Under the pieces are notes generated by a model that was not told where the DNA came from, did not search any database, and saw nothing but the letters and a program-made list of their open reading frames with translations. Source: an uncultured Candidatus Melainabacteria bacterium (GTDB taxonomy: Bacteria; Cyanobacteriota; Vampirovibrionia; Gastranaerophilales; Gastranaerophilaceae). Taken from it: a DNA stretch of 64,000 nt. The stretch spans positions 1 to 64,000 of the forward strand of contig CATNBA010000002.1 in the NCBI GenBank assembly GCA_950096985.1, in the 5' to 3' direction. The number at the start of each line of letters is the position of its first letter. The first letter of the stretch is position 1. Shown piece after piece: positions 5,004 to 64,000 of the stretch. The position numbers were made by a program, and so were the translations under genes.

Positions 5004-5734
5004 TTATATTTTGAAAGGATAATTATCCGGAATTTCCCAGCTGTTTTCCATAATCAATTTTGTACATTTACTAATTGCATTATTATCTTCAGGAGTTAAG
5101 GTTCCGTTTTCTCTTTTGAATGGAAAAACATCGGAACAATACTTATTTGGTCCTTTTGTTCCGTTAATATCAATTAAAACCTGATTAGTGTACCATATTT
5201 CTCCTGTAGCACTATATGTATTTTTGGGGTAAAAAACAACGGTTCCATCTGCCAACTGAAACAATAATTCATCCTTTCCTGTATAAACATGCCATTGTGC
5301 ACCACTCCATTGTTGTCTGAAATTGCCGTTAGTAGTTGGATATCCGCAATCCAGCATATCTTTGCATACCCTAGAACCTCTAAAATAAGGATGTACATAA
5401 ACTTCCTAAAAAACATTCAAATCAAGTGCAGCATTATTAGGCCAATCCTTTTGAGGACCGTTATCAAGTTCAGATAATCGAAAACCATTGTTGATAGTTG
5501 AATAAGCTTTTTTTAATCTTACAACAAGTTCTTGCTTCTTATGATTTTGAATAAGCGTTGGTATAGTTAAAGCTGCAACGACACCAATAATTCCTAAAGT
5601 AATTAATACCTCTGCAAGAGTAAATCCCAAGTGTGCCGCGTGACCTGTAACACGGCTGTTGCGTGAAATGTCGAAATTAATTTTTACACGAGCATCCTGT
5701 CGGGGGGGGGGCACTCAATGATGAATCTTAACAT
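5004..5734 (-). pseudogene. type IV prepilin-like (GFTLAEVLITLGIIGVVAAL) gene with C10 tract out of frame and an internal in-frame TAG
   Basis: RBS AAGGAG + ATG at 5734; C10 at 5702-5711 puts the ATG frame off by one; pilin frame 5714-5406 continues after TAG (5408-5406) as 5357-5004. Confidence 0.7.
5702..5711 (-). repeat. 10-nt homopolymer (C10 on coding strand)
   Basis: GTCGGGGGGGGGGCACTC on + strand. Confidence 0.98.
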
Positions 5735-18826: not shown

Positions 18827-18855
18827 TTGAAATATTCATGAAAATGTTTTATAAT
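18827..18855 (+). promoter_or_regulatory. putative promoter TTGAAA-17-TATAAT for prepilin locus 2
   Basis: TTGAAA 18827-18832; TATAAT 18850-18855. Confidence 0.6.
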
Positions 18856-18875
18856 AATTAAAAAGGAGTTGTATT

Positions 18876-19582
18876 ATGAATTTACAAGAAAAACTAAATA
18901 CCTTCGGGGGGGGGGCGCTTATCCGCTTGTAGGATTTACTCTTGCAGAAGTTTTGATTACTTTAGGAATTATAGGTGTAGTTGCGGCATTAACTTTGCCA
19001 AGTTTGATCCAAAATTATAGAAAACAACAGACTATTACAGGATTAAAAAAGGCTTATTCTGTTATAAATCAGGCAATGAAACTTTCTGAAATTGAAAATG
19101 GTCCGTATGAAACGTGGGAATCAGGTGCAAATATTACACCAAGGGCGTACATTCAAAAATATTTTTTACCTTATTTTAAAGGTGCACATTTATGCGATAC
19201 TTATCAAACCTGCGGATTCAAAAGTAATGCCCCTTATAAAACTGTTATAGGAACGCAGTCAACTGCGACCTTAACATATGAACATTATAGAATTCCATTT
19301 ATTACAGAAGACGGAATAATGTATAGTATTTCTGTTAAGGCAGATAATCGTAATGATGAAGGTATTATGATTGATGTAAACGGCTCTAAAGGTCCGAATA
19401 AAGTAGGAGTAGATTTCTTTAATTTTTATAGAACTAACAATGGAATTGTTCCTTATGGTGTTGGTTTAAGTATTGACGAGATTGATGCAAGTGTAGCCAA
19501 TGATATAAATTGCTATGCATGTGCGGCTAAAATAATTAAGGATGGCTGGCAAATAAAAGATAATTATCCGGTAAGGTTTTAA
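18876..19582 (+). CDS. type IV prepilin-like protein; out of frame as assembled (G10) from its RBS-supported ATG
   Basis: AAAAAGGAGTTGTATT-ATG; ATG frame reads MNLQEKLNTFGGGALIRL*; G11 or G8 would give MNLQEKLNTFGGG(G)AYPLVGFTLAEV...; track ORF uses an implausible TTG at 18869. Confidence 0.8.
18906..18915 (+). repeat. G10 homopolymer in prepilin leader
   Basis: CCTTCGGGGGGGGGGCGCTTATCC. Confidence 0.98.
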
Positions 19583-63398: not shown

Positions 63399-64000
63399 AT
63401 GATTAAGTATTACAAAAACAAACTCCTCTCAAACCTTCGGGGGGGGGGCACTTATCCGCTTATGGGATTTACTCTTTCAGAAGTGTTAATTACACTTGGC
63501 ATAATTGGTGTTGTTGCAGCTTTAACTATGCCAACTCTTATTGCTAAGCAGAAAGAGAAAGAAACTGTAGCAAAATTAAAAAAAGTTTATTCTACATTAA
63601 GTCAAGCATTATTATCTGCAATTGCGGATTATGGAACAGTTGATGAATGGGGTTTAGTGTCATCAAATACTGGTGAAATTAATGATGATGGGCTGAAAGT
63701 ATTGGAACACGCAGGTATGAATGCGCTTGCCGATAGATTGCATAAATATATAAAAAGTGATATTCTTACAACCGGCTGGGATAAAGATGTTGTTCTTGTA
63801 AATATGCATGGAACACCTCTTGATCAGTGGTATGACAAGGGAGAACCAAATGCTCTCAGGTTACCTGATGGGACCATATTTATAATGGGACAAATTACTA
63901 CAAATTCATTATGCTCTAATCCTGATTTAAAGTCAGGCGGATATTGCTCTACTATTGTAGTGTGGTTTCCTCCCAAAAACAAGCAAAGGGTTGAAGGGAA
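63399..64000 (+). CDS. type IV prepilin-like protein, in frame at G10; truncated by window end
   Basis: AAAGGAG + ATG; MIKYYKNKLLSNLRGGGTYPLMGFTLSEVLITLGIIGVVAALTMPTLIAKQKEKETVAKLKK...; not in ORF track because it runs off the window. Confidence 0.85.
   Translation, partial: MIKYYKNKLLSNLRGGGTYPLMGFTLSEVLITLGIIGVVAALTMPTLIAKQKEKETVAKLKKVYSTLSQALLSAIADYGTVDEWGLVSSNTGEINDDGLKVLEHAGMNALADRLHKYIKSDILTTGWDKDVVLVNMHGTPLDQWYDKGEPNALRLPDGTIFIMGQITTNSLCSNPDLKSGGYCSTIVVWFPPKNKQRVEG
63439..63448 (+). repeat. G10 homopolymer in prepilin leader
   Basis: CCTTCGGGGGGGGGGCACTTATCC. Confidence 0.98.

Follow-up and report, generated by a model that had tools for sequence, protein, structure and literature searches.

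Here we report a putative type IV prepilin gene from a member of the Gastranaerophilales, uncultured gut members of the cyanobacterial phylum, whose expression is probably controlled by slipped-strand phase variation, with a tract of ten Gs in the leader (G10) as the default OFF state; switching within its own population has not been shown. The gene lies in a stretch of 64,000 nucleotides (the window) that belongs to a metagenome-assembled genome (MAG) of 1.65 Mb in 48 contigs. Together, the about forty pilin tracts of the same type in this genome, which are usually off at ten Gs and on at eleven, look like a large, random on/off switchboard of the cell surface.

According to the proposed mechanism, the ribosome would start at the ATG at 18876 and pass the poly-G tract in the cleavable leader. 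With ten Gs, the usual length, translation would stop a few codons past the tract, and replication slippage that adds one G, or a shortening to eight, would join the leader to the pilin frame and yield the full prepilin, which would then be cut by prepilin peptidase and assembled. With about forty switches mutating independently, the population would be a mosaic in which different small sets of pilins are ON in each cell. Replication slippage as the source of the length differences and a role in surface diversification are inferred.

Layout of the window gene

The features of the locus and of two sister prepilins in the window are listed in Table 1. The original prediction held that ten Gs place the pilin one base off from the RBS-supported ATG and that frame 0 runs from there into an early stop, and both points follow from a direct reading of the sequence. 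The tract begins thirty bases past the first base of the ATG, frame 0 comprises 18 codons before the TAG at 18930, and the prepilin motif (G before FTLAEV) is found in the -1 frame from 18932. The pilin frame is uninterrupted from 5' of the tract through to the stop codon, which bears out the claim that it has no other disruption. The intact product had been given as about 237 aa, which is the length of the ORF that starts at the TTG; eleven Gs yield a product of 235 aa. One hallmark of phase-variable genes is a slippage-prone tract inside the coding region that determines the reading frame by its length, and the window gene has such a tract.

Table 1. Features of the window prepilin and of its sisters, in positions of the window.
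Feature	Position	Strand	Remarks
Promoter-like TTGAAA-17-TATAAT	18827-18855	+	11/12 consensus; directly 3' of aroE-like gene
RBS AAGGAG	18863-18868	+	7-nt spacer to ATG; direct sequence reading
TTG, start of the ORF caller	18869-18871	+	abuts GGAG; unlikely start
ATG start, RBS-backed	18876-18878	+	direct sequence reading
Frame-0 product at G10 (OFF), MNLQEKLNTFGGGALIRL, then TAG 18930-18932	18876-18932	+	direct sequence reading
G10 tract in prepilin leader	18906-18915	+	direct reading and tract counts
Pilin in -1 frame, G followed by FTLAEVLITLGIIGV...	18932-19582	+	215-aa mature part; TAA 19580-19582
Sister prepilin, G10 at 63439-63448, in frame (ON)	63399-64000	+	continues beyond window
Sister prepilin, C10 in coding strand at 5702-5711, OFF	5408-5734	-	body about 72 aa; out of frame and probably also truncated

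The promoter-like element named in the original prediction is present, begins just past the stop codon of the aroE-like gene and is the top promoter-like match of the region; the DNA is AT-rich, and chance matches are to be expected (6 found, 4.4 expected). Judged by the N-terminus of its translation, the window gene is a type IV prepilin. It possesses the cleavage-methylation motif (G or A before FTLxE) followed by a hydrophobic helix (GFTLAEVLITLGIIGVVAALT from 18932), and its N-terminus was matched by TIGR02532 of NCBIfam (18.5 bits, cut-off 16.3); the Pfam N_methyl model remained below its cut-off for the same protein. Assembly into pili is inferred, in the absence of protein or imaging data. 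In the window, runs of eight or more Gs gave 9 matches, which overlap and represent 3 tracts, compared with an expectation of 0.15. Reinitiation 3' of the tract was rejected for the window gene, which has no start codon between tract and pilin; it may matter for the 12 of 70 comparable G10 genes that have an ATG in this interval.

Tract prepilins and their common frame offset

The genome contains 51 runs of at least seven Gs, among them 48 of G9 or longer and 38 of exactly ten. Forty poly-G/C tracts are located in prepilin leaders (the coding strand has G in 27 of them and C in 13), compared with about 56 N-methyl prepilin matches genome-wide. Their lengths are mostly G10 (31 tracts), with six G11, two G12 and one G9, and the genes comprise 9 that are ON and 30 that are OFF. 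The pattern ATG-tract-FTLAE was matched 19 times in this genome, in contrast to no match for the reversed pattern, either here or in any of 35 genomes.

The remaining tracts of this genome lie mostly in non-pilin genes (seven loci), several of which are in frame at G10. Two of them look like an acyltransferase and a glycosyltransferase gene, as read from the sequence without a family search. Three places (C64:12014-12098, C54:10056-10094 and C70:15737-15773 of G001) have a pair of G tracts separated by less than 30 bp, and a tract with about 12 flanking bases (roughly TCG10CANTYTNAGCT) occurs in both orientations relative to the gene at five loci and others, as if it were invertible or inserted either way.

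The genome encodes a prepilin peptidase (PF06750, E 6e-36) and PilB/PilT-type ATPases (PF00437, four matches over the cut-off), so that a prepilin, once made, could be used. MutS is also encoded, and loss of mismatch repair was therefore rejected as the source of instability (MutL was not covered); given MutS, the switching rate may be modest, and slippage need not be fast.

For each gene, we computed the tract length that joins the RBS-supported start to the pilin. This ON length is 11 or 8 in 30 of the 39 genes of this genome, 10 in eight and 9 or 12 in one; the corresponding numbers are 18, 8 and 2 in one relative and 19, 4 and 0 in another. Pooled over these three closely examined genomes, 67 of 90 genes are ON at 11 or 8; the 90 differ in where start and pilin stand relative to the tract. 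A further sample, taken from among the pattern matches listed, comprised 112 tract prepilins with short leaders from 11 species, of which 109 need 11 or 8 Gs, via three combinations of start and pilin phase. Almost all of the 112 genes carry G10 and are off by the same one base (103 genes); two have G9, and four have G11 and are ON.

Stops in the pilin frame between tract and pilin were absent from all 109 short leaders and occurred in only 1 of 90 genes in the three-genome set, in which some leaders reach about 300 nt. Leaders of 100-300 nt with GC-rich palindromic stretches (GGCTCCGCCGGAGGC type) and a pilin frame that is still open were noted at five loci in one genome and at three in another. 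The frame arithmetic is the strongest evidence for the switch system; the gene counts overstate independence, since paralogues share 5' modules.

Across the 35 species of the genus, a genome has between 0 and 176 tracts of G9 or longer, and at least one such run is present in 131 of 150 genomes of the family. Relatives that bear a name are listed as Candidatus Gastranaerophilales MAGs or as 'Fusobacterium sp. CAG:439'. In the family sample outside the genus, a prepilin motif follows the tract in only 4 of 30 tract loci, and the link to prepilins is therefore not claimed family-wide. In the relatives, contig ends frequently fall on a G tract or no more than about 100 bases away from one (four contigs of one MAG and the end of one further locus); tract genes are thus probably under-assembled, and the counts are lower bounds.

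Selection, alleles and rival explanations

The closest pairs of G10 genes that are both OFF have dN/dS values of 0.12-0.16, and one further G10 pair, with the start of one copy unresolved, has 0.07. Pairs at greater distance mostly have values of 0.1-0.3; a value of 0.43 was obtained for one close paralogue pair, and values of 0.60-0.75 for two that are among the most diverged of the pairs listed. The range for aroE in comparable species pairs is 0.04-0.09. By these estimates, the pilin bodies behind OFF tracts are mostly under strong purifying selection, which speaks against decay.

Different tract lengths in near-identical copies, a second hallmark of phase-variable genes, were observed among the relatives and not for the window gene in its own species. 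Two species have in common a block of roughly 1.37 kb, with 6 substitutions and in the same chromosomal slot as the window gene, in which the tract is G10 in one and G9 in the other, and one relative's genome has G11 (ON) and G10 (OFF) behind identical leaders with 65/65 flank identity. A search of viral contigs for further alleles found none. In a tract-poor species (four tracts), the same slot is occupied by a tract-free pilin with an ordinary short leader (MKKSA before FTLSEV). The pilins occupying the slot share about 33% identity outside the N-terminus and, at this level of similarity, are best described as positional equivalents, not close orthologues.

Paralogues with unrelated bodies and upstream DNA have in common an almost identical module, about 150 bp long, that starts with the RBS, includes the tract and reaches into the pilin helix. 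Such modules suggest gene conversion of the leader-tract module, a process that may hold the offset and the length of ten in common. Five pairs that share a module were seen within one genome.

The claim that the gene is OFF rather than decaying is supported. The offset shared by dozens of paralogues and by other species, the purifying selection and the length differences between near-identical copies together give good support to a gene that is kept while OFF; reversibility at this locus remains an inference.

The main rival to phase variation is programmed recoding at G10, in which the ribosome slips by -1 or RNA polymerase adds a G, so that each such prepilin is made at some level and the frame-0 stop frees the ribosomes that do not shift. 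The offset at G10 is nearly always what a -1 shift would correct, and this relation is conserved. In 107 of the 109 short-leader genes, frame 0 meets a stop no more than 8 nt past the tract (in the window genome, within 9 nt in 9 of 19 G-type genes and within 30 nt in all). Purifying selection on OFF genes, moreover, is not far from that on aroE. However, seven Gs would suffice for a -1 slippery heptamer, and none of the 35 genomes contains a G7 version of this prepilin layout, as expected if a slippage-prone length is needed; the G9 and G12 alleles would not be served by a -1 shift. No RNA structure was detected downstream of the tract (53 genes, mean z 0.08, one below -2), and stem-loop-stimulated frameshifting was rejected on this ground. 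To our knowledge, efficient transcriptional slippage on G runs has not been described in bacteria. Bacterial transcriptional slippage has been surveyed for runs of A and T (PMC1088944). We regard recoding as unlikely but not negligible.

Two observations count against phase variation. Tract lengths are almost uniform in some species (45 of 46 are G10 in the G012 sample), a narrower distribution than a highly mutable tract would suggest, and purifying selection on genes that are OFF in nearly all genomes sampled would be more readily explained by some expression at G10. G10 may be fully OFF or may leak via ribosomal or transcriptional slippage. A two-level switch, in which recoding at G10 gives a low basal level of tens of prepilins per genome and DNA slippage to G11 the full expression of single pilins, can be entertained only as a doubtful variant.

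It is improbable that the tract was under-called during sequencing or assembly, with eleven Gs in reality and a gene that is simply on. Most genes are exactly one G short of being in frame, databases may give incorrect lengths for G-tracts, and Illumina sequencing has difficulty past them (PMC9187656). Nevertheless, the related MAGs were produced by several groups and have assembly names of the kind used for SPAdes and MEGAHIT assemblies. Other genes that are in frame at ten and would break at eleven (three non-pilin genes and three pilins), together with tracts called as 9, 11 and 12 in this same assembly, make a miscalled tract unlikely.

Decay, by which the gene would be a pseudogene caught by an indel, is very improbable: the gene is out of frame in the assembly and some sister pilins look truncated (such as that at 5408-5734), but the same offset recurs across species, leaders and bodies are open, and the dN/dS of OFF pairs is well below 1, so that this reading was rejected by the latter and by the shared offset. 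That the TTG at 18869 is the real start of an ordinary, in-frame gene is scarcely credible and, as anticipated by the original prediction, was rejected by spacing and paralogues: its frame stays open across the tract as far as the pilin, yet there is no spacer between GGAG and TTG, not one of 70 comparable G10 genes offers a start upstream in the pilin frame at a proper distance from an RBS, and of the 5 genes in which a TTG precedes the ATG by 7 nt, 3 have an in-frame stop.

Implications and comparison with known systems

If phase variation is confirmed, about 40 switchable prepilins in a genome of 1.6 Mb, OFF at the modal length, would constitute a large switchable surface repertoire, with possible effects on adhesion, phage entry and immune recognition. 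In this genus, gene callers will assign wrong starts to tract genes or split them. Among open-licence papers, no relevant publication was found that links Gastranaerophilales or Melainabacteria to phase variation.

Many poly-G tracts of about 8-12 per genome switch surface genes by frame in Campylobacter jejuni and Neisseria. Those contingency loci are mostly glycan, adhesin and transferase genes, whereas the tract genes described here are overwhelmingly prepilins, are OFF at the modal length and occur in a genome that encodes MutS. The pilE/pilS system of Neisseria is similar in that it generates pilin diversity, and recombination between pilin genes is suggested here by the shared 5' modules; in contrast to pilE/pilS, there are no silent cassettes feeding one expression locus, and each tract gene comes with an RBS, a start and a tract of its own. 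Genes with programmed -1 frameshifting, such as dnaX, resemble the present layout in their slippery run, the frame-0 stop soon after and a product in the -1 frame, but here no stimulatory stem-loop was detected, the run comprises ten bases instead of seven, and length variants occur.

The sortase-dependent pili of Bifidobacterium breve (bbr_0113 and bbr_1889) offer a parallel in another gut commensal, in which replication slippage in an intragenic G-tract of the first pilus gene (10-12 Gs) sets the frame; in-frame alleles give pili, and the in-frame length is enriched in mice (PMC9187656). The G10 locus was far less heterogeneous in culture than the G11 locus (PMC9187656). B. breve differs in having two loci and sortase pili, compared with about forty type IV prepilin-like genes here, in which the tract is located in a cleavable leader and the frame offset is shared. 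By analogy, the mechanism proposed for the window gene would be close in principle to the pilus switch of B. breve.
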